Of a stretch of DNA of 35,676 bases, positions 3 to 24,354 are shown in pieces (within the stretch, counting starts at the first letter, position 1; every line of letters starts with the position of its first letter). The position numbers and the translations under genes were made by a program. A model generated the notes under the pieces. It had not been told where the DNA came from. It was given only the letters and a program-made list of their open reading frames with translations, and did no database searches. Source of the DNA: a virus; the IMG/VR virus record IMGVR_UViG_3300042691_034260, positions 1-35,676 of that record; one strand, written 5' to 3'.

Positions 3-2525
3 GATAAAGAAAAAAGAAATATATATAGTGTTACAACTAGAAATCAAGACCAAATAGATTTAAATTTTGCTGACGGTAGTTTTGGCAATTTACCCAAAGG
101 GCAATTTAGATTATTTTATCGTCAAAGTAATGGTTTAACATATACAATTAAACCGGAGCAAATGAGCGGAATTAGTATTGAAATTCCTTATTTGAATAAA
201 AATAATCAACAGCACAAATTAACTTTAATTTTAGGACTTCAATACAATGTTTTAAACAGTTCTGGTGCCGAATCTAATGCAAGTATACAGAACAAAGCAC
301 CACAGGCATTTTATGTTCAAAATAGAATGGTCACTGCTGAGGATTATAATATAGCACCGTTAACTTTAGGTAATAACATATTAAAAGTTAAAAGTGTTAA
401 TCGTGTTTCTAGCGGAATAAGTAAATATTTTGACCTAAGTGACATTAGTGGAAAATACAGTAGGACAAATATTTTTGCAGCAGACGGAATAATTTATAAA
501 AATTTTAATGAAACAACTTTTGATTTTGAATTTGTTACACGAAACGAAGTATTTACAGTTATTAAAAATCAAATCGAACCAATTTTAACCAGTGAAGAGC
601 TGTCGTCATTTTATCTAGACAATTATAATACATTTGATTTAACATCAATTTCGTGGACAAATTCTCGAAATTCTATCACAGAATCGAGTGGATATTTTAC
701 TGAAGGAGGATATCCGACCGCAGTAGGCAATGTTAGTTCAGGAAATAAAATTTACATAACAGCAGGTTCTTTAATTAAATTTATACCGCCGGGACAATTA
801 GACCCTTCACATCCTTTATTTGATAATACTAAAAAATATTTTTCATCAAAAGGAAAATTAGTAAGTAAACAGTCAGACACTACAACAAATTATATTTGGG
901 CTAAAATTAAAAAAGTAATCGATGACGGTTCAAATGGCGGATTGGGACTGCTTGAAGACGGTTCAGGACCTGTTAAGTTAACTAAATTCGTTCCAACAGA
1001 TGCTGTTCCGGTTGCAGTAATTCCAAAATTTATTAATATTTTAACTTACAGTTTTGAAAATGAATTAGTAAACCTGTGTATGAATCGAAGAAATTTCGGG
1101 TTGTCATTTAATCAAATAACAGGCAAATGGATAATTGTATTAGACACTAATTTAGACCTATTCAATAGTTTTAGTCTTGATTTTCAAGGAAACACTGATA
1201 ATTTAAGTAAAGATTCAAGTTGGGTTATTGCTTTTGTGTGGAACGGTAACGGATATACAGTTCGTTCACGGACATTAGAATACATATTTGAAAGCGACAA
1301 AGAAACTGGATTTTTTGTAGATGAAAATTCTGTCAATTATGACTTTGTTACTAATAAAGTAATTAAAGATCAAGTTAATGTTCTGTCAATTAATCCTGCT
1401 TATACTCCTTCGAAAGCAGCAAACACATCTACTTTTAGTAGCTTAGGTAAAGATTATCTATGGCAAATTAATTCAGCAGTTGTAGAAGTTGATGGTTATA
1501 TAAATCCTAAAAAAGTAAAAGTAAGTTTTTATGATACAGGAGATGGGGATGTTCAAGACCCGGATAGTTTCAATAATATAGTCGAACCATTGACATTAAG
1601 TAATGAATTTTATTATACAAAAAATTCTGAAATAGTTTATTGCGAAGACAAATTTGTTTATTTTGAAAAAATTAATGGAACTGAAGAATATCAATTAGTT
1701 GACCAAGGTTCTATTATAGCTTATCCTACTCCTGATGATGTTGTAAATTCTAATCAAACGCCAGTTACTGGAGATTTATATTATTTTTACGATCCGACTT
1801 ACAATTTAGTAAAGTCATATGACGCATCTTTAGAAAATACTGGAGATCCTTGGGTATTTGAACCGAATTATTTTGCACGAGTAGGACGTCCAAATTTAAA
1901 ATTTCAATATATTCATAATAGTAATGAAGATAAAAGAATAGATCCTAGTAAGAGTAATATTATTGATGTATATGTTTTAACTTCTGATTATGATTTAGAA
2001 TATAGAACATGGCTAACTACAAGCACTGGAGACGAGCCGTTACCGCCTACTAGTCAAAGTTTAGATCAAAACTATCTTGCTTCGTTAGATTCTATTAAAA
2101 CTATCAGCGATGAAATAGTTTTTCAACCAGTAAGATATAAAGTTTTATTTGGATCAAAAGCACCGACAAATTTGCAGGCAACGTTTAAAGCTGTAAAAAA
2201 TACATCAAGGCCAGTTAGCGATAATGAATTAAAAACTAGAATTTTATCAGCTATTCAAGATTTTTTTAGTTTAGAAAATTGGAATTTTGGACAGACATTT
2301 TATTTTTCGGAGTTATCGACTTATGTCATGAATCAGCTAACTCCGGATATTACAAATTTTGTAATCGTTCCGAACTCAAATAATAGTTTTGGAAGTTTGT
2401 ATGAAATTACTTGTTTAAGTAATGAAATTTTTATTAATGGTGCAGGTGTCGCAGAGGTAGAAATTATCGATGCAATAACAGCATCTCAACTTAAAGTAAG
2501 TTCTATAGTTACTAGTGGAAGTTAA
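3..2525 (+). CDS. Baseplate wedge protein, T4 gp6-like / baseplate J-type (5' end outside window)
   Basis: The reading frame is open from the first bases of the window, so the first ATG (162) is internal and the true start lies upstream. The segment before that ATG contains FADGSFGNLPKG, a form of the FGDG..G..P..G motif typical of T4 gp6 and baseplate-J proteins, which form the ring of baseplate wedges in contractile tails. The C-terminal 100 residues (from DNELKTRILSAI) follow the gp6 pattern of an amphipathic helix, then G-x-x-F-x-x-S-x-L, then a strand-rich end. The visible part is 840 residues, already longer than T4 gp6 (about 660). The next gene starts 2 bases after the stop, preceded by GGAAG, so the two are probably translated together. 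What is seen is the motif and gene order; the wedge role is inferred from the family. Confidence 0.8.
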   Translation, partial: DKEKRNIYSVTTRNQDQIDLNFADGSFGNLPKGQFRLFYRQSNGLTYTIKPEQMSGISIEIPYLNKNNQQHKLTLILGLQYNVLNSSGAESNASIQNKAPQAFYVQNRMVTAEDYNIAPLTLGNNILKVKSVNRVSSGISKYFDLSDISGKYSRTNIFAADGIIYKNFNETTFDFEFVTRNEVFTVIKNQIEPILTSEELSSFYLDNYNTFDLTSISWTNSRNSITESSGYFTEGGYPTAVGNVSSGNKIYITAGSLIKFIPPGQLDPSHPLFDNTKKYFSSKGKLVSKQSDTTTNYIWAKIKKVIDDGSNGGLGLLEDGSGPVKLTKFVPTDAVPVAVIPKFINILTYSFENELVNLCMNRRNFGLSFNQITGKWIIVLDTNLDLFNSFSLDFQGNTDNLSKDSSWVIAFVWNGNGYTVRSRTLEYIFESDKETGFFVDENSVNYDFVTNKVIKDQVNVLSINPAYTPSKAANTSTFSSLGKDYLWQINSAVVEVDGYINPKKVKVSFYDTGDGDVQDPDSFNNIVEPLTLSNEFYYTKNSEIVYCEDKFVYFEKINGTEEYQLVDQGSIIAYPTPDDVVNSNQTPVTGDLYYFYDPTYNLVKSYDASLENTGDPWVFEPNYFARVGRPNLKFQYIHNSNEDKRIDPSKSNIIDVYVLTSDYDLEYRTWLTTSTGDEPLPPTSQSLDQNYLASLDSIKTISDEIVFQPVRYKVLFGSKAPTNLQATFKAVKNTSRPVSDNELKTRILSAIQDFFSLENWNFGQTFYFSELSTYVMNQLTPDITNFVIVPNSNNSFGSLYEITCLSNEIFINGAGVAEVEIIDAITASQLKVSSIVTSGS

Positions 2526-2527: not shown

Positions 2528-5500
2528 ATGGTTAAAAAAATAAAATCAATTGATTTATTACCAGATTTTTTAAAAACTGATAAAAATAATAAATTTTTAT
2601 CGAGCACTCTTGATCAATTAATACAAAAACCGTCTTTGGAACGATTAGATGGATTTGTAGGATCTAAATTAACTCCAAACTATGATCCTAATAACGATAA
2701 TTATATATCCGATGTGTCTAATATTAGACAAAATTATCAGTTATCACCGGCTCTTATTATTAATGATCAAGAAAATAACATTACTGATGTAGTAAGTTTT
2801 GATAATTTAATTAATGAAATTACACTTCAAGGTGGATATACTGATAACCTTGATAGATTATTTGAAACAAGTTATTATTCATATAATCCATTTATAGATT
2901 GGGATAAATTTATAAATTATCAAGAATACTATTGGTTAGTCACAGGACCGCAAACTATAGTAATTACAGGAAAACCGCAAAATACAACTAGCACATTTAC
3001 AGTAACTGAATCAGCTAATAGTTCATCTTTTGTATTTTCACCGGATGGTCTTTCTGAAGATCCTTTAGTAACACTATATAGAGGTAACACTTATATTTTT
3101 GATGTAAATTCGACTCAAAAATTTTATATTAAAACACAACCAACATTTGGTAATAACGACATTGTAGTTAATAATATAACAAACAATGGAATTAATAATG
3201 GAAAGATTACGTTAATTGTAGATGAAACTACACCTGATACTTTATACTACATAGGTAGTGATAGTCCTAATGCACAAGGGCAATTTGTTGTAAAATCCAT
3301 TGAAGAAGATACTACATTAGATGTAGAAAATGAAATAATTGGTAAACAGAATTATATTTCAGGTACAGGAATACAATTTTCTAACGGAATGAAAATACAG
3401 TTCGGAGGAAATGTAACTCCTGCGATGTATAAAAATAAAGAATATTTTGTCGAAGGTGTAGGAAAAGAAATACGATTAATTGATTACAGTATATTAACTT
3501 CGTCTGCCGATATAGCTGACACATATAATGATAATTTTGATATTACTCCCTTTGATACATTTCCCTTTGATACGTTTAAACGATTGCCCATTGACCCTGA
3601 GTATATAACAATTAATCGATCTAGTCGAGATTTAAATCCCTGGTCTCGATATAATCGTTGGGTGCATAAAGATATCATCAAAATAAGTGCAGAATTAAAC
3701 AATCAAATTCCAGTATATCCTTCGGATAAACGTGCAAAAAGACCTATAATTGAATTTATTCCTGATTTGCAATTATATAATTTTGGCGGCCAAGGTATAA
3801 AAAATGTTGATTTAATTGATACTACAACTCTTGATGCTTTTAATACAATTGAAAATTCACAAGGATATTATGTTGATCAAATTTTACTAGAGCAAGGTTA
3901 TAGAGTTATTTTTAATGCTGACTTAGATCCCGATGTTAGAGGAAAAGTCTATATTGTAAATTACGTTTTAATAAATGGTAAAAAGCGTTTAGAGCTTGTT
4001 CCAGCCGAAGATCATGCTCCTGTTGATAATGCAGCAGTTAGTATAAATTATGGATCTGAATATAAAGGAACAAATTGGTGGTATAATGGATCAGAATGGA
4101 TATACGCACAACAGCATATTAAATTAAATGACCCTCCTCTATTTGATTTATTTGATAATATAGGACAAAGTTACAGTAGAGATATTAAAACAGATTTTGC
4201 AGGTAATAAAATTTTTGGATACACGCCGGGGACAATTAATGATACAGTTCTCGGATTTCAAATCAAACAAGAAAATAGTGTTGGAATTGGTAGTTATTCG
4301 TTTAAAAATTTCTTAATGACAGAAACATTTGGGTTAATTGAAAGCAGTTTAAGTGCTAAAACAATTAACACTTATAATACTTTTATTAAAATTAATAATG
4401 ATAGTTCAACGTATAGGAATTCATGGATAGATGGAAAGCCCTATCAAATTCCTATTATACAATTTGATACAATTACAACATCTACATCTAATGTAATGGT
4501 GTCTGCAGTCGATTTAACTAATTCGACATATGTAAACTTTGATGTATTTTTAAATTTAAAAAAAATAAACAGTTCAAATTATGCAACTACAGTAACAAAT
4601 AATGTATATTCTATTAAATTTAATAACAATTTAAATACAGGAACTACGGTATTATTAAAAATTAGATCTGATGGAAAGTTGATAGAAGATAAGGGATTTT
4701 ATGAAATTCCTATTTCGGTAACTAATAATCCTGATAATAGTATTGTAGATGAATTAACATTAAGTGAAATTAGCAATCATGTTCGTGTAATTTCGGAATC
4801 TTCGTCGGAATTTACAGGAACATATCCAGGGGATAGTAATTTAAGAGATCTTGTAGATGTAAATGGATATGCTAATCAAATAATTACAAATATTAATCCT
4901 GGATTATTTTCTAGTTTTTTTATAGGCAAAAAAGAACATAGTTTATTAGATGCTATTAGTGTAGCTGCTGACGATTATAATAAATTTAAATTATTTTTAA
5001 TTAAAAAGATTTCAGAAATTAATGTAGGTTTAGATCCTATTGTTATTTTAGATTCTGCATTGCAAGATATAAATGCAACTAAACTTCAAAATTCTCCTTA
5101 TTATTTTTCTGACATGCTTGGATACGGCTCAGATAAAAATATTAAAACATGGAATGTTAGTAGTTTAGACAATTCTATATTTCCGTTACCGTCTTCTTTT
5201 AATCTTAGTAAATTAAATTTAAAATCTATTTTAGTCTATGTTAATGATATTCAATTAGTAGCTAATAGAGATTATACATTTATAGATGATACAGATGTTG
5301 AAATACTAATTGAATTATCTATTAATGACACGATAAAGATTGTTGACTATTTTAGCACAGAGGGAAATTTCGTCCCAGCAACACCAACAAAGTTAGGATT
5401 ATATCCAAAATTTGAACCTAAAATATTTGTTGACAATACTTATATTGACAGTCCTACTAAAGTAATTCAAGGACATGACGGTAGTATAACTGTTGCATTT

Positions 5501-8500
5501 AATGATTATAGAGATGATGTTTTATTAGAATTTGAAAAACGTATCTATAACAATATAAAAGTAGTGTATAAGCGTGAATTATTAGATTTTAATTCAGTTA
5601 TCCCTGGAGCATTTAGAACTGTAGAATATTCACAAAATGAAATTAACAGTATATTACAAAAAGATTTTATTAAATGGGCAGTAGCCTATGGAGTCGAATA
5701 CGAAAAAAATACTATATTTGATCTAGACAACCCTTATACATGGAATTATACAGGATCATTTAATTTTACATTAGGCAAACCTGTATCAGGTTACTGGAGA
5801 GCAGTTTATAAGTATTTCTATGATACTGATAGACCGCATACTCATCCGTGGGAAATGCTAGGGTTTAGTGAAAAACCTAATTGGTGGGACACTGAATATG
5901 GACCTGCGCCTTATACTTCTGGAAATGATATCTTATGGAATGATATCGAATTAGGTAATATTAAACAAGGTTCAAGAAAAGGTATTGATAAAATTTATGC
6001 TAGGCCTTTATTATCTAATTTATTGCCAGTAGATGAATATGGCAATTTAGTAGACCCGACAGTTAGAATTGCATCAGATATTACAGCTTTTAATCAACGT
6101 CAAAATTTTGTATTTGGTGATCAAGGACCTGCAGAATCGTCGTGGCGTAAAAGTAGCTATTGGCCTTATGTTGTTCAAAAATTATTAGCATTAACAAAAC
6201 CTGCGTTATATTCTGCATTAATGTATGATGTATCTAGACTTGAAAAAAATCTAGCAGGACAATGGATTTATAATGGAAACTTTATAAATCTTAAAAATGT
6301 TATAGTTCCTGTTGATAAAGATAATATTACTGCCGGATATAGCGTATATGTAATTGAGTCCGGTAAACAAAGATCAATTGATTATATTGATAAAATAACT
6401 TCTGATATTCAAAATTATGAAATTAAATTATTTCATAAAATTGGCGGATTTGTTAATAAAAATAAATTGCAAATAATAATCGATGCATTCGATCCAACGT
6501 CGACGGCACCCGGAGCAATTTTACCTCAAGAAGATTATAAATTAATTTTGAATACAGGTAATCCTATTAAGTCATTAGGTATATCTGGAATGATTATACA
6601 AAAGCTTAATGGAAAATTTGTTTTAAAAGGGTATGACACTTTTGATCCTTATTTTACTGTTTACACCCCGATTAGAAATTCAAATACTCCTTTGATAACA
6701 GTAGGCGGAACCTCAGTACCTTATTTAGAATGGAGCGGTGGTTCCACAGAAGGAAATACAGGACTTACAGATATAGAGTTATCTACTGCCGAGTCTGCTA
6801 CATCGTCAAAATATTATCAGCAAGGACAAGTAGTATCTTATCAAAATAAATTTTATGTTGTAAAAGTAAGCCATTATGCAAAATCTACTTTTAATGCTTC
6901 ATATTTTCAATCAATACCTAGCTTACCTATTAAAGGTGGAGTAACAGTTCAGTCTGAGTTAACTTTTGATAAAGTTGATAAAAAAATTCCTTACGGCAGT
7001 CAATTTGAAAATATTCAAGATATCTATGATGTAATTATCGGATATGGTGCATGGTTAGAAGCTCAGGGATTTATTTTTGATCAATATAATTCAGAGTTAA
7101 CTGAATCGTTAAATTGGAAATTTTCAGGTAAAGAGTTTTTATATTGGACTACTCAAAATTGGGCAGATAACAGTATAATTGCATTAAGTCCTTTTGCAGA
7201 TCAGTTAAAATTCCAATCATCAAATTCTGTTGTAGATAATCTTTTTAACTTTGAAAACAAATACAAAATATTACAAGTAAATGGAACGGCAATATCACAA
7301 AAAGATATTTCAGTATTTAGAGATGAACAACTTTGTGTAATCAATACAACTAATTCCGCTCAAGGAATGTATTATGCACGATTAAATCTTGTGCAAAAAG
7401 AACATGCTATAGTTTTTAATAATAGAACAATCTTTAATGATACTATATATGATTTTGAAACAGGTTATAGACAGCTTCGAGCTAAACTTGTTGGATTTAG
7501 AACTAAAGATTGGAACGGTGATTATTTTAGCCCTGGATTCGTTTATGATTCGGTAAAAATAACAACCTGGAAAAAATATACAAAATATAAAAATAGTGAT
7601 GTTGTTAAGTATGCTGGAAAATATTATTCCGCAGCTAAGAATATTGATCCGGCTGAGACATTTGATTTTTCAAATTGGGTATTGTTAGCTCAAAAGCCAG
7701 AAGAAGACTTGTTGCCAAATTTTGATTATAAAATAAATCAGTTCGAAGATTTTTATAGTTTGGATATTGATAATTTTGATTCTTCTCAGCAACAAATGGC
7801 TCAGCATTTAGTGGGATATACACCTAGAGTTTATTTGAATAACATCTTTACAAATCCTATTGCACAATACAAATTTTATCAAGGATTTATTAAAGAAAAA
7901 GGCACAAAAAATGCTATTAATAAATTAGCAAAAGCTAGTATTCAAAATCGTCAGGGCGAAGTTGAATATAATGAAGTATGGGCATTTAGATTAGGACACT
8001 TTGGATCCTTTGAAACTTTTAAAGAAATAGAATTTTCGTTAGTTGAAGGCACCTTTATCGATAATCCACAAATTATAAATTTTGTTGATACTAAACCTGC
8101 ATTGCCTAACGATTTAATTTACTATCAATTAAAAGATAATTTCCTAATTAAACCTAAAGATTATGTATCGTCAAATACCTTTATTACATCATTCTCAACA
8201 TTTGACGACAACATTTTTCAATTAAAAACAGCAGGGTATGTAAGATTAGAAGATATTACGGCAACTGCGTTAAATGAAGATAGTTTATTTGATATTGCCA
8301 GTAATAGTTTAATTAGTGAAGGAGATACTATTTGGTTAGGATTTAGAAGTGATGGCGAGTGGGATGTCTTAAGATATACTAGAAATCAAGCTCGAATTAT
8401 TTCAGCGCAATCTAATCAATCAGTAACACAAGTAACTTTAACAACCGATATATTCCATGATATTAAACCTAGTGATATTATTTCAATATCACAATTGAAT

Positions 8501-11500
8501 GACAATTTAAATGGAGTGTATAAAGTTATAGATGTTCCTAGTTTAACATCTTTTGTTATAGAATATACAGGTAATCCTATTTCTATTGATGAAGAAACAA
8601 TAGTTTCTCTTGGACTTTTGTTTAAATTTGTTAGCTATAGATTTAATTCAATTGATAATTTTTATACCGACAATAATTTAATAAATTTAAATTATGGAAC
8701 AAAATTTTGGGTCGATGCTGATGTTATAGGTAAATGGAAAGTTTACGAAAAAACAAAAAATTATAAATTAAAAACTAAATTAAAATCTAGTATAACAGCA
8801 GATACACATCAATTTGGTTATTCGATATCACAACGAACAAACTCTAATATTGTTTTAGTAGGAGCACCTAGTTTTTATGATTCGACAAATTATGGCAAGG
8901 TTTATGTTTATAAAAATCAAAATGATAGCTTAATATCAATTTGTCAATTTACTCTAAATGAAAATAAAAATTATCACGTTCCTGGGACAAAAAATGAATT
9001 TGGTTATGTAGTCCTTTATGACCCTGATGATTATTTAGATACAGGATATGGATTAACATTTATTGGAGCACCGGCAACAAGCAATGTAAAAAGTAACTCT
9101 ACTACAGGCACAGTGAGAGAGTCCACGGGAACTGGGTCAATTTCGTCGTTTGTTCAAGAAGGTGCAGTTAAAATAAGTAGTATTGATCCTATTTTAATTA
9201 GAGAAAAAGCAGAATTTGTTTTATTAAGTCCCTATCCAGCAAGTTATCAAAGATTTGGTAGTGCGATTTATGTTCAAAGAAATGCTTCTACAAAATTAAC
9301 ATTAGTAGGTGCACCCGGAACCTTAACAACAGGTAGCGGTGCTGTTTATGCTTATAATATTCTAAGCACATCTACAACAAATTTACAAATAATACCAGCT
9401 CCTACAGGGATCCAAGTTGCAAGTTCTGGTACCATTTCTGTAGGAAGCCAATGGGGATTTTCTATTAGCGGGTCTGACAATTCGTCAGTTATTGCTATAA
9501 GTGCTCCTGGGTATAATAACCAAAAAGGAATGGTTCAAATATTCAACGGAACTTCTTTTGTCCAGACTTTAGAAGTCCCAACAGTAATAAAAGAAAAATC
9601 TAGATTTGGAAATAAAGTTTTAGTATCGCCGGACGGATTAGACATATTTGTTACTGCACCGAAATCAAAAAATTTAGATAATTCGTTAGGTAAAGTTGTA
9701 TGTTATCGTAAAAATTCTATAACAGGATTGTTTACAGTTACTCAAATAATTTTAAACCCAGTGTCAGAGTCAGAAATGACTTTTGGTGCAAATTTAGATT
9801 TAAATTCTGATAAAGATCTTTTAGTAATTTCTGCATTAGGAAATAATTCTCGAATATTTACAACGTTTGATAATTATTCCGAACCGTCTGATATACCATT
9901 AGTAAATGACGCTGAAAGCGATTTAAAAGAAAATCTTACAAATTTTGATAATAAATCTACAACATTTAAAGACGGAATTAAGAAAACAGGAGCAGTTTAT
10001 CTTTATGATAAAAAGAATTCTAAATATATTTTAGTTGATGAAATTTATTTAAATGCTTATAAAGAAGGAAATGATTACGGCCACGGTGTTTCGATTAATA
10101 ATAACTCAATTTATGTCGGAGCTCCGTCATATAGCACTACGACAAATATAAGTTATGTTTATAATTTTGCTAAAATAGATAAAACTGTTTCGGGATATAA
10201 AGTTTTACATAGTCAAGACGATTTAGTTGATGTTAATTTATTAAATCGAAATGTATTAATTAATACTGAAAAAGAAGAAGTTATCGAATATTTAGATGTA
10301 ATAGACCCATTAAAAGGAAAAATTGCAGGGCTCGCACAGCAAGAATTAACATATAGGTCTGAAAATGATCCTGCAATTTATTCTTTAGGAATTGTTGCGA
10401 CCAATAACGATGAAAACACTAACTGGTTAGATGAACATGTTGGTGAACTTTGGTGGGATTTAAGCACATTGAAATATATGTGGTATGAACAAGGTGATCT
10501 GAATTTTAGAAAAAACACATGGGGTAAAGTATTTCCTGGAGCAACTATTGATGTATATGAATGGGTTAGATCAGAATATTTGCCAAGTGAATGGGCTACG
10601 ATAGCAGACACTGCGGAAGGTTTAGTAAATTCAATTAGCGGACAGCCTAAATATTCAGATAATACAGTGTTGTCAATTAAGCAAGTTTTAGATACAGCTA
10701 CTGGTACATTTATTAATGTTTATTATTATTGGGTAAAAAATAAAGTAACACTTCCGTCTAGAAAGAATAGAAGAATTAGTTGTTATCAGGTTGCAAACAT
10801 AATTGCTGATCCAATAACCTACGGATTAAAAACAATTCAAATATTGTCTGCAGATAGTATTTCATTATCAAATGTAGCTACACAATTAATAAGTGACAAA
10901 ATATCTTTAAATGTGTCGTTTGATATCATTAACAATCGTTTACCTCGACATACTGAATGGCTACTGCTAAAAGAAAATTCTGAAAATAGCATTCCAAATA
11001 CATTATTAGAGAAAAAATTAATAGATAGTTTTGTTGGATATGATAGTTTAGGAAATCCTGTTCCAAATAAATCGCTAACATTTAGAGAAAAGTATGGTAT
11101 AGGTATTCGTCCACAACAAACTATGTTTAAAGATAGATATGAAGCATTGAGAAATATAGTTGAATTTGCTAACGGTATATTAATTAAAAATCCAATAACA
11201 GATACATCTAGTTTTAATAATTTAAATAGTGAAGACCCAATTCCTGATGCAAGTTTAAATCAATATGATGTCATAGTCGAAGATCTTGACTATCTGTCTT
11301 TAGAGGTGCCAAATACTTCTGTTTTAAAAACAGGTGAATTAACAGCATATGTAAAAGATGGAAAAATATACAATGTAACAATTGAAAATCAAGGATTTGG
11401 ATATAGATATCCTCCTACAGTTACAATTTCAGATAATGAAAATAACAATGCAATAATTAATACAAGTATTAATTCAGACGGACAAATTGTTTCAGTTGAT

Positions 11501-14500
11501 ATTGTTAATCCCGGTAATAATTTTACCACGGCACCTACATTAACAGTGAGGCCGTTTATTGCGATTGTGTTAATAGATGAAAATTTAAATAATCGCTGGG
11601 CAAAATATTATTTTAATGAGCAATTAAAATTATGGATTAAAATAGCTACACAAAAATTTAATACTAAATTATATTGGAGTTATGTAGACTATGTAAGCGA
11701 AGACTATAAACCTTATAATGATTATTCTTATACACTAGATAATGTATTCCAATTGCAAACATTATCGAATATTTCTCCCGGCGAATATATTAAAATTAAA
11801 AATGGGGGATCTGGTCGTTATATTATTATTGAAAAAACTCCAGTAGATGTGTTAGGAAATTTTAGTAATAATTATAATTTAGTTTATAGTGAAAACGGAA
11901 CGATTCAAATTAATGATAGCATTTGGAATTTTATTACAGGTGATTTAACTTTTGATAAAAATAACAGATATGACCAAACTCTGTATGATCAAACACCTGT
12001 TGTTGAAATAAAAAATATATTTTTAGCATTAAAAGAAGATATTTTTATCGAAAATTTAAAAATAAATTGGAATTTATTATTCTTTAAAGCAGTAAAATAT
12101 GCCTTGTCAGAACAAAAATTGTTAGACTGGGCGTTTAAAACATCATTTATTGATGTTATTAATTATGCTGGAACTTTAAATCAGAGATCTGTATATAAAT
12201 TAGATTCTAGTTCTTATTTTGAAGATTACCTCAAAGAAGTAAAACCCTATCATAGCATAATTAGAAATTATACAACAAATTATAATAATAATGAACCGAC
12301 TAATACATATATAACTGATTTTGATTTCCCGACATATTATAACGAAGAAACAGGAAAATTTGAATTTGTTAACTTTGATAATTCGTTAATTGATCAATAC
12401 CCATGGAAATCTTGGGTAGATAACTATAAATGTTTTATTGCCGAAATAGTAATTGCAGATGCAGGAACAGGATATACAGCAGCACCTACAGTAACAATTC
12501 AAACAGCAGTCGGTGATACAGGGACCGGAGCAACAGCTAGAGCTTATATTAGTTCAGGAAAACTATCATCTATTGAAATAATTAACCCCGGAAAAAATTA
12601 TACTAAATTACCTAATATTATTTTAAGTGGCGGAGGAGGGTCTGCTACTCAAGGAAGAGCCTATGCTAGATTAGGTAATGATAAAATAAGAGCTAATACG
12701 ATAGGAATTAAATTCGATAGAATATCGTCAACTGTAAATTACATAGATAATAATGTTAGCGATTCTTTTATTTGTGATGGTTTTTCTAAAGAATTTATTT
12801 TAACTTGGTTAGCAACGCCCGATAGCTTAAAAATAACAGTAACATTAGATGGAAATTTAGTATTAGGCAGTGATTATATTGTTAGTTATTTTACAGAATT
12901 ATATAATGGATATAATAAAAAGTTTTCTAAAATTATTTTTGTAAACGAAGCACCAATTAAAGATTCAGTATTAAAAATTGATTATGTAAAGAATATTGAA
13001 TTATTACATGCAGCAGAAAAAATTATTTCTTATTATACTAATACTAATTTTATTGGCAAAGACTTAGCTCAATTAATGGAAGGAATTGAATTTCCTTATA
13101 ATAAATTAGAAGGGTTGCCGTTTGATTACACTTCAAAATGGGATGTTGAATATCAACCATTTGGACAATTTGCTTATGCAGATAATGTTGATTATTCAAA
13201 CAATTATATAGTCGGATCTGTTGCAGCTACAGGAACAAATACAATTGCGTTAACGACTACTACAGGAATTCAAATAGGACAATATGCAAACATTACTAGC
13301 TATATTGTTAACAAATTTGCTACATCGGCAACAGTAGTAGTATCATCCGTAACAAATAATAGTGTTACATTTAGTTCTACATTAAGTGATGCAGTTTATC
13401 CTGGAGATAAAATTGAAATTTGGTCTCAGTCCACTAGCCCTACATTAATTGATACTGATTTGTTTGGCGGCAATTGGATAAACTCAACAACTAACTATAT
13501 TTCTAATGCGTTAGGCGTTAATCCTGAAGATGTAATTGTGTCTGGTGACGGATTCTTCACTCAAGATAGCCTATATGCAACTGAAGAATTGGTTCCAGGA
13601 TTTGTTACTGATACATTAGGGATTAATGTTTATACTAAAAATTCTTTTGGAGCTCCTTTAGTTTATTCTAGCTTTAAATCTAATACAGTTAATTCTTATG
13701 AATATATCAATTTGCCATTTTTACCTCCGAGTCAGGATTATATAAAAGTAACTTTTGACGATATAAATCTTACATATAACTCGCAAGTAGAAAATATAGC
13801 TATCGATTTAAGACCATTTGAATTTACAATAAATTGGACTACAAAACAACTTATAATCGGTGAGCTTCCTACAGCTGGTTTAATAAAATATACAATTATA
13901 GGTATTAGCACTAGTGAAGCAAGTTTGGGAGTAGGGCTTGTTGATTTTAAATCAACAGTTACAACTCTATCATTAGTGCAAGTTATGAGTGATTCGATAA
14001 TTGATACAGTTAATAGTGCATATGTTACAGTTAACGGAGTAGCAGTTCCAAAAGTTACTGAACCTACTAGTTCTGGGTTTACATTATCTATGGCTAATGA
14101 TGGTAGTAGACGAGCAGTAGTGAACGTTTATGTTTCAACTCCGTTGTCTATGAATACAGTTCAAGCATATTTCTTTAGTGGATTATATGGCCAATTTAAT
14201 GAAATTAAAGAGCAAATATTTGAAGTAAGTTCAACGCCGACATCAGTGTTTACATTAAGTTATCCTCCTGGAGTATCAGGGCCTTTATCTGCAAATATTA
14301 TTGTTGATAAAACAGATATTTCGGGAACAGTTAGATTGTTACCTCCTTTTATTACATATTATGATATAACTAACTCGATTAACACAATTTTTGCAATCAA
14401 TTCATATTCGTCAGATCCGCTTAGATATAATGTAAATGATTTTACTATTTTGAATGTAAAAGTTTATATTAACGGCAAAGCGTTACGACCAGGATTTGAT

Positions 14501-15889
14501 TATTCAGTTCCTGTAGGAACTGGTAATATTGATATAAGTCCTGATTTTATCAAAGTAGGAAATGTTGTTGCTATTGAGTGTTTAGTGCAAGGGTTAACAA
14601 GTGATTTAGAATTTGACTACAATGTTGTAGGAGACAAATTAATTTTACAAAATCCTGTTGATAATTTAACTATTAAAGTAATAACATATAATGATAATGA
14701 TGGATTATTAGTTAGAACTGAAAGATTTATTGGATCTCCTGATCGTAGATATAAAATTAGTAGGCCAGTATTAAATGATGCATATGTTTGGGTGCAGGTT
14801 AATGGATTGGCATTAATAAGTAAGTTAGACTATGAAGTATTAGACGATCAAGTTACTATTCAAATTAGTGATGCTTACAATCATTCGATCGAAGACGAAG
14901 TAATAATAACTAGTGTCTCTAGTGAGCAATTTTCTTACACAGTATTAGGGTATAGAATATTTAAAGATATATTCAACAGGACTCATTTTAAGAGATTGTC
15001 AAAAAATAACACCACATATTTAATTAAAGAATTAAACTTTAGCGATACTGAAATATATGTTGCTGATTCTACAGTTCTTACATCACCGATTCCAAGTAAA
15101 AACATTCCAGGGGTTATTTTAGTAGATGGAGAACGAATAGAATTTTATAAAGTAAATGGGAATATTTTAACTCAACTAAGACGCTCTACATTAGGAACAG
15201 CGCCGAGTAATGTTTGCCAAATTGGAACTAAAGTTATTGATCAAGGGATAAATCAAACAATTAAATATTCAATTAATAATTATAAGCAAGTTCATATAAC
15301 CACAAGTTCAAATGTTTATACTATATCAACATTAACAAATGAAATAACCGGTGACGGTATTGTATTAGTTTCTAATCCATATATGCCCGCAAAAGATCAA
15401 ATTTCTGTATATTACGGAGGAAAATCTTTACGTAAAACCGGTCAGTATTATCAAGATATTAGTGAAGCATTTGACAGTAGTCCTTTTAATATAAAAGGAA
15501 CAACATCCACAGCGGAGTTGTTACCTTCAACGGCTGTAAAGTATGATGCGTATTTAATTACAAATAATAATCAAGTTTGGGTTTATACAAACTCTAAAAA
15601 ATTGGGTTCAATAAATGGATTTGAATATAATGGATTAAATTATTTGCCTCCGGAATTTAGTGTAAATACATCAACACAACAGTTAACATTAAATGTTGCA
15701 GGAGGAGTTGATCCCGGAATTAAGATAACAATTGTTAAGAAAGACTTCTTAAGAAGTAGTTCTTGGAATGATGAAGTTACAACTTCAACAACGTTATCAT
15801 TGTTTGATAGCACAACACCGCAGGCAAAATTTTTACAGGAACAACCTGCTGAATTGCCGGATATTTATTACTATGGTGGATCAACATAA
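2528..15889 (+). CDS. Giant virion structural protein (4453 aa), baseplate or tail associated
   Basis: A single uninterrupted 13.4-kb frame directly behind the gp6-like gene, in the position gp7 holds in T4, but more than four times as long as T4 gp7 (about 1030 aa). The N-terminus (LPDFLKTDKNNKFLSSTLDQ) resembles the start of large structural proteins of marine T4-like phages. No signal peptide, membrane segment or catalytic motif was recognised. Recognisable parts are a seven-repeat FG-GAP-like propeller at about residues 2096-2545, two G-x-GY...P beta modules at about 2955 and 3311, repeated NG/DG...Y-x-V beta units through about 3400-4150, and near the C-terminus a DGERIEF...RSTLGT motif (about 4199-4240) common in phage fibre-like proteins. 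The composition (many N, T, S, Y, V, I) fits a beta-rich extended virion protein. A baseplate wedge or baseplate-attached fibre role is inferred from context only. Confidence 0.75.
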   Translation: MVKKIKSIDLLPDFLKTDKNNKFLSSTLDQLIQKPSLERLDGFVGSKLTPNYDPNNDNYISDVSNIRQNYQLSPALIINDQENNITDVVSFDNLINEITLQGGYTDNLDRLFETSYYSYNPFIDWDKFINYQEYYWLVTGPQTIVITGKPQNTTSTFTVTESANSSSFVFSPDGLSEDPLVTLYRGNTYIFDVNSTQKFYIKTQPTFGNNDIVVNNITNNGINNGKITLIVDETTPDTLYYIGSDSPNAQGQFVVKSIEEDTTLDVENEIIGKQNYISGTGIQFSNGMKIQFGGNVTPAMYKNKEYFVEGVGKEIRLIDYSILTSSADIADTYNDNFDITPFDTFPFDTFKRLPIDPEYITINRSSRDLNPWSRYNRWVHKDIIKISAELNNQIPVYPSDKRAKRPIIEFIPDLQLYNFGGQGIKNVDLIDTTTLDAFNTIENSQGYYVDQILLEQGYRVIFNADLDPDVRGKVYIVNYVLINGKKRLELVPAEDHAPVDNAAVSINYGSEYKGTNWWYNGSEWIYAQQHIKLNDPPLFDLFDNIGQSYSRDIKTDFAGNKIFGYTPGTINDTVLGFQIKQENSVGIGSYSFKNFLMTETFGLIESSLSAKTINTYNTFIKINNDSSTYRNSWIDGKPYQIPIIQFDTITTSTSNVMVSAVDLTNSTYVNFDVFLNLKKINSSNYATTVTNNVYSIKFNNNLNTGTTVLLKIRSDGKLIEDKGFYEIPISVTNNPDNSIVDELTLSEISNHVRVISESSSEFTGTYPGDSNLRDLVDVNGYANQIITNINPGLFSSFFIGKKEHSLLDAISVAADDYNKFKLFLIKKISEINVGLDPIVILDSALQDINATKLQNSPYYFSDMLGYGSDKNIKTWNVSSLDNSIFPLPSSFNLSKLNLKSILVYVNDIQLVANRDYTFIDDTDVEILIELSINDTIKIVDYFSTEGNFVPATPTKLGLYPKFEPKIFVDNTYIDSPTKVIQGHDGSITVAFNDYRDDVLLEFEKRIYNNIKVVYKRELLDFNSVIPGAFRTVEYSQNEINSILQKDFIKWAVAYGVEYEKNTIFDLDNPYTWNYTGSFNFTLGKPVSGYWRAVYKYFYDTDRPHTHPWEMLGFSEKPNWWDTEYGPAPYTSGNDILWNDIELGNIKQGSRKGIDKIYARPLLSNLLPVDEYGNLVDPTVRIASDITAFNQRQNFVFGDQGPAESSWRKSSYWPYVVQKLLALTKPALYSALMYDVSRLEKNLAGQWIYNGNFINLKNVIVPVDKDNITAGYSVYVIESGKQRSIDYIDKITSDIQNYEIKLFHKIGGFVNKNKLQIIIDAFDPTSTAPGAILPQEDYKLILNTGNPIKSLGISGMIIQKLNGKFVLKGYDTFDPYFTVYTPIRNSNTPLITVGGTSVPYLEWSGGSTEGNTGLTDIELSTAESATSSKYYQQGQVVSYQNKFYVVKVSHYAKSTFNASYFQSIPSLPIKGGVTVQSELTFDKVDKKIPYGSQFENIQDIYDVIIGYGAWLEAQGFIFDQYNSELTESLNWKFSGKEFLYWTTQNWADNSIIALSPFADQLKFQSSNSVVDNLFNFENKYKILQVNGTAISQKDISVFRDEQLCVINTTNSAQGMYYARLNLVQKEHAIVFNNRTIFNDTIYDFETGYRQLRAKLVGFRTKDWNGDYFSPGFVYDSVKITTWKKYTKYKNSDVVKYAGKYYSAAKNIDPAETFDFSNWVLLAQKPEEDLLPNFDYKINQFEDFYSLDIDNFDSSQQQMAQHLVGYTPRVYLNNIFTNPIAQYKFYQGFIKEKGTKNAINKLAKASIQNRQGEVEYNEVWAFRLGHFGSFETFKEIEFSLVEGTFIDNPQIINFVDTKPALPNDLIYYQLKDNFLIKPKDYVSSNTFITSFSTFDDNIFQLKTAGYVRLEDITATALNEDSLFDIASNSLISEGDTIWLGFRSDGEWDVLRYTRNQARIISAQSNQSVTQVTLTTDIFHDIKPSDIISISQLNDNLNGVYKVIDVPSLTSFVIEYTGNPISIDEETIVSLGLLFKFVSYRFNSIDNFYTDNNLINLNYGTKFWVDADVIGKWKVYEKTKNYKLKTKLKSSITADTHQFGYSISQRTNSNIVLVGAPSFYDSTNYGKVYVYKNQNDSLISICQFTLNENKNYHVPGTKNEFGYVVLYDPDDYLDTGYGLTFIGAPATSNVKSNSTTGTVRESTGTGSISSFVQEGAVKISSIDPILIREKAEFVLLSPYPASYQRFGSAIYVQRNASTKLTLVGAPGTLTTGSGAVYAYNILSTSTTNLQIIPAPTGIQVASSGTISVGSQWGFSISGSDNSSVIAISAPGYNNQKGMVQIFNGTSFVQTLEVPTVIKEKSRFGNKVLVSPDGLDIFVTAPKSKNLDNSLGKVVCYRKNSITGLFTVTQIILNPVSESEMTFGANLDLNSDKDLLVISALGNNSRIFTTFDNYSEPSDIPLVNDAESDLKENLTNFDNKSTTFKDGIKKTGAVYLYDKKNSKYILVDEIYLNAYKEGNDYGHGVSINNNSIYVGAPSYSTTTNISYVYNFAKIDKTVSGYKVLHSQDDLVDVNLLNRNVLINTEKEEVIEYLDVIDPLKGKIAGLAQQELTYRSENDPAIYSLGIVATNNDENTNWLDEHVGELWWDLSTLKYMWYEQGDLNFRKNTWGKVFPGATIDVYEWVRSEYLPSEWATIADTAEGLVNSISGQPKYSDNTVLSIKQVLDTATGTFINVYYYWVKNKVTLPSRKNRRISCYQVANIIADPITYGLKTIQILSADSISLSNVATQLISDKISLNVSFDIINNRLPRHTEWLLLKENSENSIPNTLLEKKLIDSFVGYDSLGNPVPNKSLTFREKYGIGIRPQQTMFKDRYEALRNIVEFANGILIKNPITDTSSFNNLNSEDPIPDASLNQYDVIVEDLDYLSLEVPNTSVLKTGELTAYVKDGKIYNVTIENQGFGYRYPPTVTISDNENNNAIINTSINSDGQIVSVDIVNPGNNFTTAPTLTVRPFIAIVLIDENLNNRWAKYYFNEQLKLWIKIATQKFNTKLYWSYVDYVSEDYKPYNDYSYTLDNVFQLQTLSNISPGEYIKIKNGGSGRYIIIEKTPVDVLGNFSNNYNLVYSENGTIQINDSIWNFITGDLTFDKNNRYDQTLYDQTPVVEIKNIFLALKEDIFIENLKINWNLLFFKAVKYALSEQKLLDWAFKTSFIDVINYAGTLNQRSVYKLDSSSYFEDYLKEVKPYHSIIRNYTTNYNNNEPTNTYITDFDFPTYYNEETGKFEFVNFDNSLIDQYPWKSWVDNYKCFIAEIVIADAGTGYTAAPTVTIQTAVGDTGTGATARAYISSGKLSSIEIINPGKNYTKLPNIILSGGGGSATQGRAYARLGNDKIRANTIGIKFDRISSTVNYIDNNVSDSFICDGFSKEFILTWLATPDSLKITVTLDGNLVLGSDYIVSYFTELYNGYNKKFSKIIFVNEAPIKDSVLKIDYVKNIELLHAAEKIISYYTNTNFIGKDLAQLMEGIEFPYNKLEGLPFDYTSKWDVEYQPFGQFAYADNVDYSNNYIVGSVAATGTNTIALTTTTGIQIGQYANITSYIVNKFATSATVVVSSVTNNSVTFSSTLSDAVYPGDKIEIWSQSTSPTLIDTDLFGGNWINSTTNYISNALGVNPEDVIVSGDGFFTQDSLYATEELVPGFVTDTLGINVYTKNSFGAPLVYSSFKSNTVNSYEYINLPFLPPSQDYIKVTFDDINLTYNSQVENIAIDLRPFEFTINWTTKQLIIGELPTAGLIKYTIIGISTSEASLGVGLVDFKSTVTTLSLVQVMSDSIIDTVNSAYVTVNGVAVPKVTEPTSSGFTLSMANDGSRRAVVNVYVSTPLSMNTVQAYFFSGLYGQFNEIKEQIFEVSSTPTSVFTLSYPPGVSGPLSANIIVDKTDISGTVRLLPPFITYYDITNSINTIFAINSYSSDPLRYNVNDFTILNVKVYINGKALRPGFDYSVPVGTGNIDISPDFIKVGNVVAIECLVQGLTSDLEFDYNVVGDKLILQNPVDNLTIKVITYNDNDGLLVRTERFIGSPDRRYKISRPVLNDAYVWVQVNGLALISKLDYEVLDDQVTIQISDAYNHSIEDEVIITSVSSEQFSYTVLGYRIFKDIFNRTHFKRLSKNNTTYLIKELNFSDTEIYVADSTVLTSPIPSKNIPGVILVDGERIEFYKVNGNILTQLRRSTLGTAPSNVCQIGTKVIDQGINQTIKYSINNYKQVHITTSSNVYTISTLTNEITGDGIVLVSNPYMPAKDQISVYYGGKSLRKTGQYYQDISEAFDSSPFNIKGTTSTAELLPSTAVKYDAYLITNNNQVWVYTNSKKLGSINGFEYNGLNYLPPEFSVNTSTQQLTLNVAGGVDPGIKITIVKKDFLRSSSWNDEVTTSTTLSLFDSTTPQAKFLQEQPAELPDIYYYGGST
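8813..10180 (+). other. Seven FG-GAP-like repeats (predicted beta-propeller) inside the giant protein
   Basis: Within residues about 2096-2550 there are seven repeats of the form (F/W/Y)G..(h)...........(h)(V/I)(G/S)AP......G.V..Y. They begin at F2096 (nt 8813), then near nt 9000, 9254, 9452, 9606, 9782 and 10077. Examples are IVLVGAP, LTFIGAP, LTLVGAP, IAISAP, IFVTAP, LVISAL and IYVGAP. This is the pattern of the FG-GAP repeat of integrin alpha-type propellers, and seven copies is the closed-ring number. The sixth copy is degenerate (SAL instead of SAP). Propellers of this kind usually bind proteins or sugars; that role is an inference here. Confidence 0.7.
11325..11560 (+). repeat. G-x-GY...P beta module, copy 1 (coding)
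   Basis: Encodes a two-part unit, IENQGFGYRYPPTVTI then IVNPGNNFTTAPTLTV, inside the giant protein. The same unit recurs about 1.1 kb downstream. Such G-x-GY..PTV motifs are frequent in tail and fibre proteins of aquatic phages. The function is unknown. Confidence 0.55.
12445..12640 (+). repeat. G-x-GY...P beta module, copy 2 (coding)
   Basis: Encodes IADAGTGYTAAPTVTIQ followed by IINPGKNYTKLPNIILSG, matching the unit at 11325-11560 in order and spacing (G-x-GY..P-T-V, then N-P-G-x-N-(Y/F)-T..P). It is separated from copy 1 by a different segment, so this is a recurring domain rather than a recent tandem duplication. Confidence 0.55.
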
Positions 15890-16611: not shown

Positions 16612-18405
16612 ATGCCTTATACATTAAAATTTTCAGATTCTTCTAAAATTGAAACGGTAGTTGTTCCTGAAATGCCGCCGGGCATTAATTCGATCGATAC
16701 TAGCTTAAGTTTAGTAGGTAAAAATTATCCCAATTACGGTGAAAAAATAGCTCAGAATTTTCTTTCTTTATTAGAAAATTTTGCATCTCCATTACCGCCA
16801 GAAAACCCAATCGAAGGACAATTGTGGTATGATACAAGTGATCCTAACAGTAAAGTTTTAAGAATAATGGACGGAACTGCTGATAGCACTAGATGGCCAT
16901 CTGCTAACGGTATATATCAGCAAGGAACAGATCCTAAAGAAACCGCAACTGCTGGTTTAAAAGTTGGAGATATTTGGGTCGACACTCAAAACAATGTTTT
17001 AAAAATTTACCATAGCGGTAATTGGACTACAGTAGGCCCTACAATAAGCTCTGGTATAAACAAAACTGGAGTCGAACCAGCAATTATAACTAGCAATACT
17101 AATACAGATCACGGTGTAGTTATAACTTATATTGATGGTAATGCTGCGACTATTACGGCTTTTGATCAGTTTGTTCCGAAAACAGTTATTGACGGATTTA
17201 CTTTATTAAAGCCTGGAATTAATATTTCTACAAATAATAGTTCAATAGTTAACGGAACAGCAGATTCTGCTGCTAATTTAAAAATTGGCAATAATAAGTA
17301 TTTGGCAAATAGGTTTTTAATTAAAGATGATTCTCTACAACAGTTAATAACTGGAAAATTATTTTTTCAAACACCGTCAAATCAGGCAGGAAGCGAAGGA
17401 CGAGATGGTATAGTTATTGATACGAAAATTCCATCAAACAATACTTATGTTCAGTTTTACAAATATGTTAATGATGCAGTAATTCTTAATAATACACCCG
17501 GCGGAAAAATTGTTTTTAAAACTAGGCAAAGTATTGGTTCAGGGTTAGTTAACGGATTAACAATTGAAAATCAATCAGTTGCCATTAACACAGTCACTAA
17601 TTCTAATTATGCGCTTTCAGTAAATGGTGCTCTTTATGCATCTGGTGACATTATTTTAAACTCAACATCTTCAAACACTACTATTGTAAAAGGAGCAACG
17701 AACTTTTCTCAGAATGTTACTTTAGAAAAGTCTTTGTTGGTTAACAATAATGCAACAGTTACTAGTTTATTAACATTAGGAGCTTCGGCAGGAGTAGGAG
17801 TTGTTTTATTACCTGGAGCACATAATTCTTTAGATATAGGTTCTACTACAAAGTATTTTAGAAGATTATATGTATCATCTATCGGTTCAACAGGAACAGG
17901 GACAGTTTTATACGGTCGAGTTATAGGAAATTCTACAGGATTAGAAAAATCTTCTGAATTTAAGCTGCAAGGACAAGTAACTGCTCCTTCGTTTATATTT
18001 GCAGGAACAGGCACAACGGCTACTTTTGTTACATCGTTATCAACTACAGCAATTACTGGGCAACAAGCGTTAAGTCAAACTACTTCAACTTTAACTTTAT
18101 TAGTTGTAGATACTTCTACATCTGCTACCTATACAGGGTTACAAAAAATTAATAGATACGACTTCTTAAAAGGAATTGTTCCTTCCGGAACAATAATGCC
18201 ATTTTCAGGAACAGTTGTACCTGACGGTTGGCTATTATGTGACGGCACATCTAAGTCCAGCACTAATTATCCAGAACTATTTTCAGTTATAGATAATTTT
18301 TATAAAACAGGCGGCACAAATTTTAAAGTTCCGGACATGAGGTATTCTACTACTTCTACAAATGGTGTTGGTGTGACATTTATACAATACATTATAAAGA
18401 TATAA
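16612..18405 (+). CDS. Tail fibre protein with C-terminal tail-collar domain
   Basis: 597 residues. The N-terminal region (about 1-145) has the unit SLVGKNYPNYGE..AQNFLSLLENFA...GQLWYDT followed by GDIWVDTQNNVLKIY...W..VGP. It is shared with the next two genes and is probably the attachment domain. A long beta-rich, low-complexity middle follows. The C-terminus (about 520-597) is a phage tail-collar domain: GTIMPFSGTVVPDGWLLCDG, then NYPELFSVI and F-x-VPDMR. Tail-collar domains are found at the tips of short and long fibres, including T4 gp12-type fibres. Receptor contact or fibre assembly is inferred. It starts 18 bases after the previous stop, with a weak GGA upstream. Confidence 0.8.
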   Translation: MPYTLKFSDSSKIETVVVPEMPPGINSIDTSLSLVGKNYPNYGEKIAQNFLSLLENFASPLPPENPIEGQLWYDTSDPNSKVLRIMDGTADSTRWPSANGIYQQGTDPKETATAGLKVGDIWVDTQNNVLKIYHSGNWTTVGPTISSGINKTGVEPAIITSNTNTDHGVVITYIDGNAATITAFDQFVPKTVIDGFTLLKPGINISTNNSSIVNGTADSAANLKIGNNKYLANRFLIKDDSLQQLITGKLFFQTPSNQAGSEGRDGIVIDTKIPSNNTYVQFYKYVNDAVILNNTPGGKIVFKTRQSIGSGLVNGLTIENQSVAINTVTNSNYALSVNGALYASGDIILNSTSSNTTIVKGATNFSQNVTLEKSLLVNNNATVTSLLTLGASAGVGVVLLPGAHNSLDIGSTTKYFRRLYVSSIGSTGTGTVLYGRVIGNSTGLEKSSEFKLQGQVTAPSFIFAGTGTTATFVTSLSTTAITGQQALSQTTSTLTLLVVDTSTSATYTGLQKINRYDFLKGIVPSGTIMPFSGTVVPDGWLLCDGTSKSSTNYPELFSVIDNFYKTGGTNFKVPDMRYSTTSTNGVGVTFIQYIIKI

Positions 18406-18409
18406 AAAT

Positions 18410-19390
18410 ATGGCATATACAATATCAAACACTGACGGATCAACTTTAGTCCTATTAGCTGATAATACTGTAGACAATATTTCAACCAGTATTGCATTAA
18501 TTGGCAGAAATGTTAATGGATTCGGCGAATACTTTAACAACAATTTAATTAAATTAATGGCAAATTTTGCCTCAGATTCAATTAACCCTCCGACGAATCC
18601 TCTAAAAGGTCAGTTGTGGTATGATACTACAGTTAAAAAAATTAAAGTATATGATAACGGTTTTAAAAATGTAAGTGGTGCAATAATTTCTGCCGCGCAA
18701 CCAGACTCATTAAGCACTGGTGACCTTTGGTTCGATAGCACCAATAATCAATTAAAAATTATAAATGGTAGTTCAGTTCTATTAGTAGGTCCTACATATC
18801 CAATCAGTGTAGGAGAAAATGGGTGGATACTTCCTCAAACAAGCCTAAGAGACAATAATTTATATGTTAAACAAGTTACTTTGTTAAAAAATTATGGAAA
18901 TTCCTTAGGAGCCATATCTCATGAAGCGTTTGACGTAGTATCTAGCGATGCCACTACTTATTTTAATACTTCTACAGTATCGTTAGTATCAGGACTGAAT
19001 ATATTCGGAGATATTAATTATACTGGCAAAATTAATAATAATTATTTTACTTTAAATGTTGATTTAGATGTATTAACACCGTCGTCAAACGATATTTCTA
19101 ATATAACTGATGTAGTAACACAAACGAATGCTATTATTGATTTGTTAAATGCAGTATTTCCTATTAACACACAAACAGGAAATATTTCTCACCCGTTAAA
19201 TTCGCAGTCAATTGAACCCGGTGTTCCGGTAAACAGCGAAGCAAGAGTAATTTGCCAACATACTGTTCCTTTTAATGGATATCAAATTCGAAGATTTAAT
19301 TCTACATTATTAACTTGGGATTATGTTGAATTAACAACTTCAAATGTATTTACAACCGTATCCAATGTGATTGCTACAATTAACCTATAA
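18410..19390 (+). CDS. Tail fibre-type protein, paralogue of its neighbours
   Basis: 326 residues. The N-terminus repeats the family pattern IALIGRNVNGFGE..NNNLIKLMANFA...GQLWYDT, then GDLWFDSTNNQLKI. After about residue 135 the sequence diverges and no known domain is recognised. There is no tail-collar motif; the end is a short beta-rich tail. It begins 4 bases after the preceding stop. Likely a virion appendage protein made by duplication of an attachment domain with a new C-terminus; its exact place in the tail is unknown. Confidence 0.7.
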   Translation: MAYTISNTDGSTLVLLADNTVDNISTSIALIGRNVNGFGEYFNNNLIKLMANFASDSINPPTNPLKGQLWYDTTVKKIKVYDNGFKNVSGAIISAAQPDSLSTGDLWFDSTNNQLKIINGSSVLLVGPTYPISVGENGWILPQTSLRDNNLYVKQVTLLKNYGNSLGAISHEAFDVVSSDATTYFNTSTVSLVSGLNIFGDINYTGKINNNYFTLNVDLDVLTPSSNDISNITDVVTQTNAIIDLLNAVFPINTQTGNISHPLNSQSIEPGVPVNSEARVICQHTVPFNGYQIRRFNSTLLTWDYVELTTSNVFTTVSNVIATINL

Positions 19391-19398
19391 TAAATATT
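19386..19398 (+). promoter_or_regulatory. Possible T4-type late promoter element (TATAATAAATATT)
   Basis: An AT-rich element containing ATAAATAT sits 15 bases upstream of the third fibre gene, which has no Shine-Dalgarno sequence. It overlaps the stop of the preceding gene. The core is the same as the element at 15918-15926. A match to T4 late -10 sequences is plausible, but chance is not excluded in this base composition. Confidence 0.3.
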
Positions 19399-19412
19399 AA
19401 AAAAATAAAATT

Positions 19413-20606: not shown

Positions 20607-21487
20607 ACAGCCATATCTGCTTTAATTGCGTCATGGCATTTATAGTCAATTAATTCAATATCGTCCATTGTAAATTCTGTAATAGTTTGAATATTTTTGT
20701 TTAATTTTAATTTAGGTAAAGGAAAAGGTTTTCTTTTTAATTGCTCTTTTACTTGATCGATATGATTATTATATATATGAGCATCGCCTACACTTATAAT
20801 TAATTTACTTGCTTCTAGATTACATACACTAGCAATCATGTGCGTAAATAATGCATAACTTGCAATATTAAAAGGCATTCCTAAAAACATATCAGCGCTC
20901 CTCTGATACATATGACAGCTTAACTTATTGTCGTGGACATAAAATTGTGCCATCATATGACAAGGTGGTAACGCCATCAGATCTAATTCACCCGGATTCC
21001 ACGCAGTAATTATATGACGTCGACTATACGGATCTGTTTTTATTCCTTGAATTAATTCTAATAGTTGATCATGGTTTTGTAAAACTACTTTATTAATTCT
21101 AACCAATGGTCTGCGCCACCGACGCCATTGAACTCCATATATCCTACCGAGATCTCCAGGATGGCGTTGAAGTCGTTTTTTAGTCCAATAATCGGCAGAA
21201 GCGTTATCGGACCAAATTGTTTTTTTATCAGTATATCTTTCACCGTGAAGAATTTCTTTTAAACGATACTCGTCTCCACTGCCTTCAATAAACCATAAAA
21301 GTTCTGATACGACTGCACGCCAGGCAAGCTTTTTTGTTGTAATGGCCGGAAATCCTTTTTCAAGATCAAAGTTTAATTGTAATCCGAATATACTTTTTGT
21401 TCCTGTATTAGTTCGATCGATGCGATCTCCGCCTGTTTCTAAAATATTTTTTAATGCTGCTAAGTATGTAGTTTCGGTGTCGTTCAT
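20603..21487 (-). CDS. thyA: Thymidylate synthase
   Basis: Converts dUMP to dTMP with methylene-tetrahydrofolate, producing dihydrofolate. All family landmarks are present: phosphate-binding DRTNTGT (R25), cofactor-side SELLWFIEGS, dimer arginines YSRRH (156-157), catalytic cysteine in LPPCHMMAQF (C176), RSADMFLGMPFNIASYA, SVGDAHIYNNH, and the C-terminal AV-type end. The length of 294 residues is slightly above bacterial ThyA (264). It overlaps the DHFR gene by 4 bases (ATGA), the same frd-td order as T4, so the enzyme that recycles its dihydrofolate is made alongside it. No intron interrupts it, unlike T4 td. It is the last gene of the minus-strand run. Confidence 0.97.
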   Translation of the reverse strand: MNDTETTYLAALKNILETGGDRIDRTNTGTKSIFGLQLNFDLEKGFPAITTKKLAWRAVVSELLWFIEGSGDEYRLKEILHGERYTDKKTIWSDNASADYWTKKRLQRHPGDLGRIYGVQWRRWRRPLVRINKVVLQNHDQLLELIQGIKTDPYSRRHIITAWNPGELDLMALPPCHMMAQFYVHDNKLSCHMYQRSADMFLGMPFNIASYALFTHMIASVCNLEASKLIISVGDAHIYNNHIDQVKEQLKRKPFPLPKLKLNKNIQTITEFTMDDIELIDYKCHDAIKADMAV

Positions 21488-24299: not shown

Positions 24300-24323
24300 A
24301 ATAAACTCCTATTGTGATACACA

Positions 24324-24352: not shown

Positions 24353-24354
24353 GT

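Follow-up and report, generated by a model that had tools for sequence, protein, structure and literature searches.

A preliminary description of the 35.7-kb virus record analysed here (the window) recognized a row of FG-GAP-like repeats within a predicted phage baseplate protein. This raises the questions of whether these repeats constitute a complete β-propeller, how such a domain came to lie in the middle of a giant structural protein, and what it might do on the virion. We sought to address these questions by combining motif statistics and profile searches with structure prediction, and by comparing the locus with the corresponding regions of related jumbo phages.

The giant protein and its genomic context

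The plus strand of the window opens within a gp6-type baseplate wedge gene (162..2525; phrog_10646 baseplate wedge subunit, E 5e-132), the product of which is truncated at its N-terminus by the window edge, with the frame open from base 3. It is followed on the same strand by a single open frame encoding the giant tail or baseplate structural protein of 4453 aa that carries the repeats (2528..15889). This protein scores 1090 bits against phrog_10938 ('virion structural protein'), and tblastn searches found relatives of its residues 1-2058 in 60 jumbo-phage records, with every identity below 60%. Among these phages are PA5oct-like Pseudomonas phages, Atu_ph07, Salicola SCTP-2, Salmonella Munch, Klebsiella RaK2 and Escherichia 121Q. 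The protein thus belongs to the phrog_10938 family by homology over its conserved core. The direct succession of wedge gene and giant-protein gene recurs in RaK2, the PA5oct-like Cassandra, Atu_ph07 and CBB, and the giants of this family, such as CBB_236 and RaK2 ORF070, share with the window protein this position after gp6, a conserved N-terminal region of 1850 residues and a domain downstream of the repeats.

Virions of CBB yielded 21 unique peptides of the orthologue CBB_236, which holds a domain matching the window protein (PMC5259590). Likewise, the 382 kDa gp245 of phAPEC6, adjoining the baseplate wedge gp244, was detected with 17 peptides (PMC7247149), and its gene position and size indicate that it is probably another orthologue. 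The assignment to the baseplate therefore draws its support from synteny with the gp6-type wedge and from virion mass spectrometry of an orthologue, rather than from direct localisation. T4 gp7 occupies the same position after gp6; however, no sequence homology between it and the giant protein was found, and direct homology was rejected on profile comparison (probability 0.1%), leaving position after gp6 as the sole basis of a gp7-like placement.

The conserved domain downstream of the repeats (aa 2560-2890; 10205..11197, plus strand) is matched in 59 cultured phage records, and its structure model is of low confidence. Upstream lies a weak match to the CBM5/12 (chitin-binding type 3) family (aa 1427-1451; 6806..6880, plus strand; 19.2 bits, below cut-off), which reaches or exceeds the cut-off in the giant proteins of two close relatives, L001 and L002. 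The L001 protein additionally contains two Laminin_G (LamG) stretches (aa 1053-1126 and 1213-1360), in a stretch that the window protein lacks. The family has taken up other modules elsewhere too, namely LamG in L001 and CBM5/12 in L001 and L002. A LamG domain guessed by eye in an SCTP-2 insert was dropped, as it had no Pfam match. A 94-aa segment (aa 147-240; window 2966-3247), apparently another inserted module, is missing from L001 and L002 and gave no Pfam match. The same giant protein also contains two similar GY-x-x-x-P-x-V-x-I repeats (aa 2936-3008 and 3304-3376; window 11333-11551 and 12437-12655), one of which matches phrog_460, a family labelled head closure Hc2; several relatives have copies resembling them.

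Seven repeats and their predicted fold

Seven consecutive units of the form [FWY]G...(G/S/T)A(P/L) span aa 2096-2533, starting at aa 2096, 2158, 2243, 2309, 2360, 2419 and 2517. The seven-in-a-row arrangement first noted from the sequence alone withstands statistical scrutiny: 5000 shuffled versions of the 530-aa stretch averaged 0.05 units and none had more than 2, and the remaining 530-aa stretches of the giant protein have at most one unit each. Profiles built with one blade left out located six blades correctly (E 5e-8 to 0.017), with chance matches elsewhere at E ≥ 0.3. Blade 6 was missed by the profile built without it, and is thus divergent. The Pfam FG-GAP_2 model matches the isolated 530-aa fragment with 32.8 bits (E 8e-8; cut-off 23 bits), scores 19.3 bits, below the cut-off, when all 4453 aa are scanned, and matches all eight members of a homologue alignment (A1) at E ≤ 0.01.

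Together, the motif test, Pfam, AlphaFold and Foldseek delimit an FG-GAP_2 or integrin-type seven-bladed propeller, including an N-terminal closing strand, at aa 2078-2549 (8759..10174, plus strand). The individual blades, all on the plus strand and defined by the AlphaFold model, the motif test and the leave-one-out profiles, are blade 1 (8813..8953; FGYSI..VGAP..GKVYVY), blade 2 (8999..9229; FGYVV..IGAP, a long loop and GAVKIS), blade 3 (9254..9400; FGSAI..VGAP..GAVYAY), blade 4 (9452..9577; WGFSI..ISAP..GMVQIF), blade 5 (9605..9757; FGNKV..VTAP..GKVVCY), blade 6 (9782..10048; FGANL..ISAL, a long insert and GAVYLY), which has no proline in its GAP box, and blade 7 (10076..10174; YGHGV..VGAP..ISYVY). 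The start originally given to the domain, 8813, coincides with the first FG codon, but the fold begins about 50 bases earlier, with the closing strand near aa 2079-2086. The G-x-V-x-x-Y box, described as part of the repeat pattern, survives only in part in blades 2 (GTVRES/GAVKIS), 4 (GMVQIF) and 7 (without its G).

The AlphaFold model, computed on eight aligned homologues (mean pLDDT 69, pTM 0.77), has a strand order of seven four-stranded blades preceded by a short N-terminal hairpin (fragment residues 11-17 and 21-28); pLDDT falls below 50 in the long blade-6 insert. Its best match among solved structures in Foldseek is integrin alpha5 (7nwl; E 6e-9, TM 0.52 over the query). A longer, 941-residue model based on eleven aligned sequences repeats the propeller of seven four-stranded blades, and integrin alpha chains take the first seven places among its solved matches (E 7e-12 to 2e-10). 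The sequence profile of A1 likewise finds integrin alpha-4 at E 3e-9, a value that sums weak repeat matches. Structure prediction, suggested earlier as the check on a seven-bladed FG-GAP-like propeller, thus bears this reading out in both models, with ring closure deduced from the order of the strands and from the Foldseek matches at moderate model confidence. The domain is accordingly predicted to be a complete seven-bladed FG-GAP_2 (integrin-type) β-propeller.

While the window domain shares its seven FG...GAP repeats and best solved folds with the FG-GAP_2 family (PF14312) and the integrin-alpha propeller, it differs from the latter in residing within a phage structural protein and in the absence of DxDxDG-like calcium loops from its blades in a motif scan. 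A strict definition of FG-GAP calls for the full FG-GAP/Cage pattern in each blade (PMC3192720); here a loosened pattern is complete in five of the seven, blade 6 lacking the P and blade 7 the third G. The motif scan of the propeller also found no RGD-type motifs.

The preliminary description implied that such propellers are rare in phages, which overstates the case, since further phages, as well as giant viruses infecting eukaryotes, also have them. A fold search of predicted viral structures returned many giant-virus FG-GAP propellers, a protein labelled 'FG-GAP repeat' from an uncultured Caudovirales phage, and Atu_ph07 gp320. The last of these ('hemagglutinin protein') is a phage FG-GAP_2 repeat protein like that of the window, but is free-standing and of 393 aa; gp111 ('TolB') of Synechococcus phage S-SCSM2R is another, but has 1369 aa and is not evidently related to the giant baseplate protein. 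Searches of the open-access literature returned no paper on FG-GAP with phage baseplate, and for FG-GAP with bacteriophage no title or abstract on phage tail proteins. FG-GAP propellers in viruses are therefore already known; what is new is an integrin-type propeller inserted in a giant baseplate protein, of which we found no description.

Insertion site, distribution and divergence

The propeller is bracketed by two segments, one before it (8708..8752, plus strand; WVDADVIGKWKVYEK) and one after it (10190..10234, plus strand; GYKVLHSQDDLVDVN), which form the strands of a base hairpin and align with contiguous sequence of propeller-less relatives; for the second strand, a flank-only profile also matches in L013, L014 and L016. 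In propeller-bearing sequences the domain lies between WxDxxxxGKWKVYEK-like and W/Y...QxxLVD-like segments, and the two flanks, when joined, correspond to contiguous sequence in the PA5oct-group protein (KVWIDSINSDNDWAVAVVSGSTITNIRSRQNLVDSRLFE), Atu_ph07 (KWKVKEFTKVINGDDWNTIREETPMVD) and SCTP-2 (RWAVYYFNSGKWNLDYKEQDVID). When the propeller profile was run against the proteins of these three, just its last, flank-derived part matched. With the window propeller as a tblastn query, none of the 59 cultured records with the downstream domain was found, and a search using it together with the propellers of two relatives returned nothing in phages; the propeller of another relative, L024, had S-SCSM2R gp111 as its sole phage match. 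The FG-GAP_2 profile found no match in the giant proteins of Cassandra, RaK2, SCTP-2, Vibrio 2.275 and Munch. The propeller profile gave flank or insignificant matches only, and on these searches we rejected the idea that cultured relatives conceal a divergent propeller. As judged from these alignments, the propeller is an insert in a predicted surface β-hairpin, and the cultured relatives searched, none of which has a propeller at this site, read straight through it.

In a tree of 910 core columns, ten propeller-bearing sequences are split from seven propeller-less ones with a support of 100, and all relatives recovered via the propeller carry it at the same place of the same protein. The distribution fits a propeller confined to one branch, with one gain or one loss in this unrooted tree. 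Such restriction to one family branch, together with absence at the site in cultured relatives, runs against the initial suggestion of an old domain. Extra stretches between blades occur in L003, L009, L012 and L031; in the first three the propeller region measures about 770 aa versus 530.

The propeller is 39-40% identical to those of L001 and L002, versus 56-57% for the core before it (aa 1491-1870) and 60-61% for the core after it (aa 2560-2890), and a similar local dip in identity is seen at the propeller in other sequence pairs. At the level of sequence identity, then, the propeller diverges faster than its flanks. Against this background, profile comparison of the relatives identified a motif in the blade-6 insert, TxFDxxTTxF...GxVYxY (aa 2471-2493; 9938..10006, plus strand), versions of which are present in 13 of 13 propeller-bearing giants and in none of six cultured relatives, even though identity to the window propeller otherwise lies at just 24-40%. 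The FG of blade 6 is also invariant among the eight aligned members of A1, despite the absent GAP proline. The conservation of both elements points to specialisation rather than decay; the sixth repeat is indeed divergent, as the preliminary description held, but the degeneracy it read there is not decay.

Possible roles of the propeller

We consider binding of the host surface or of a glycan the likeliest role of the propeller, by a modest margin over the remaining possibilities taken together. The picture that best explains the observations, and which we hold to be rather probable, is that of a propeller inserted in a surface β-hairpin of a giant protein of the baseplate-wedge region in a RaK2/PA5oct-like jumbo myovirus. 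The two ends of the propeller are expected to come together in the final blade, so that the hairpin could carry it without disturbing the scaffold. Several copies would be displayed outward from the tail tip, and the loop face would bind a host-surface ligand during adsorption, with a glycan or outer-membrane protein as the likeliest candidate and specificity set by the fast-diverging loops; docking of the propeller, either to the baseplate or to itself, may be the task of the conserved blade-6 insert.

Evidence counted in favour of binding includes the lectin and CBM modules in the same family, the faster divergence relative to the flanks, and precedents among phage propellers. The baseplate propellers of phi11 and PhiKZ gp131C are proposed or likely receptor binders (PMC4901313). 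PhiKZ gp131C (PDB 4GBF) offers a seven-bladed jumbo-phage baseplate propeller, proposed as receptor binder or enzyme (PMC4901313), but there it is a C-terminal domain and in the window an insert, and gp131C was absent from the sequence matches and the best 50 fold matches of the window propeller. The phi11 receptor-binding protein also bears its propeller on the baseplate, with a likely GlcNAc site (PMC4901313); it is trimeric with a five-bladed platform, whereas the window propeller is seven-bladed. On the other side, faster divergence also fits relaxed constraint, and the virion data come from cultured phages rather than from a propeller-bearing member.

The main alternative is that the propeller is structural, serving in the baseplate wedge or tail tip as a rigid spacer or a contact between subunits, and touches no host ligand. 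The seven-bladed propeller of T7 gp12, which closes the tail channel and is purely structural (PMC6702177), is a precedent for it; the blade-6 insert motif is shared by members that have otherwise diverged, which is what one would expect of a docking surface, and the constant location among relatives recovered through the propeller agrees with it. However, the scaffold of cultured jumbo phages works without the propeller, and faster divergence than the flanks is the opposite of what is usual for a shared assembly interface. We accordingly regard a structural role as a serious but distinctly less probable option than binding. An enzymatic role, sialidase-like or otherwise glycan-cleaving and directed at surface polysaccharide, is very improbable: sialidase and arabinanase propellers, including the phage K1F endosialidase, do appear lower in the fold lists, but integrin alphas rank first, Pfam shows no match to an enzyme family, and the motif scan found no sialidase Asp-box within aa 2059-2588. 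Equally hard to credit is a decayed or open propeller with real repeats and no function, for though the GAP proline of blade 6, the G-x-V-x-x-Y glycine of blade 7 and a whole-protein Pfam score above the cut-off are lacking, seven blades are predicted in both models, and the blade-6 motif, like the FG and GAP residues, persists across sequences of only 24-40% identity.

If the propeller does bind the host, a eukaryote-like adhesion fold would sit at a defined insertion site on the tail tip of a giant phage, and a very large baseplate protein would possess host-recognition modules besides the tail fibres. This would help account for the 3300-5000 residues of the giant proteins and define a new place for host-range determinants. 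More tentatively, and with less confidence than binding itself, one may envisage that an uncultured jumbo-phage lineage gained the integrin-type propeller once, as an exchangeable or tunable adhesion head, with the giant protein serving as a general display platform for LamG, CBM and propeller modules, independent of the tail fibres.

Elsewhere in the window, three tandem fibre-like genes (16612-20606) have the N-terminal families phrog_15511 and phrog_14394 in common, which suggests a common attachment domain, and the first of them terminates in a tail collar domain. The minus strand carries genes of nucleotide metabolism, for a thymidylate synthase, a dihydrofolate reductase and a protein resembling IMP dehydrogenase/GMP reductase (20603-21978 and 30491-31585), as well as a phage-encoded pair (23046-25481) in which a MoxR-type AAA ATPase adjoins a DUF2201 metallopeptidase/VWA-like protein.
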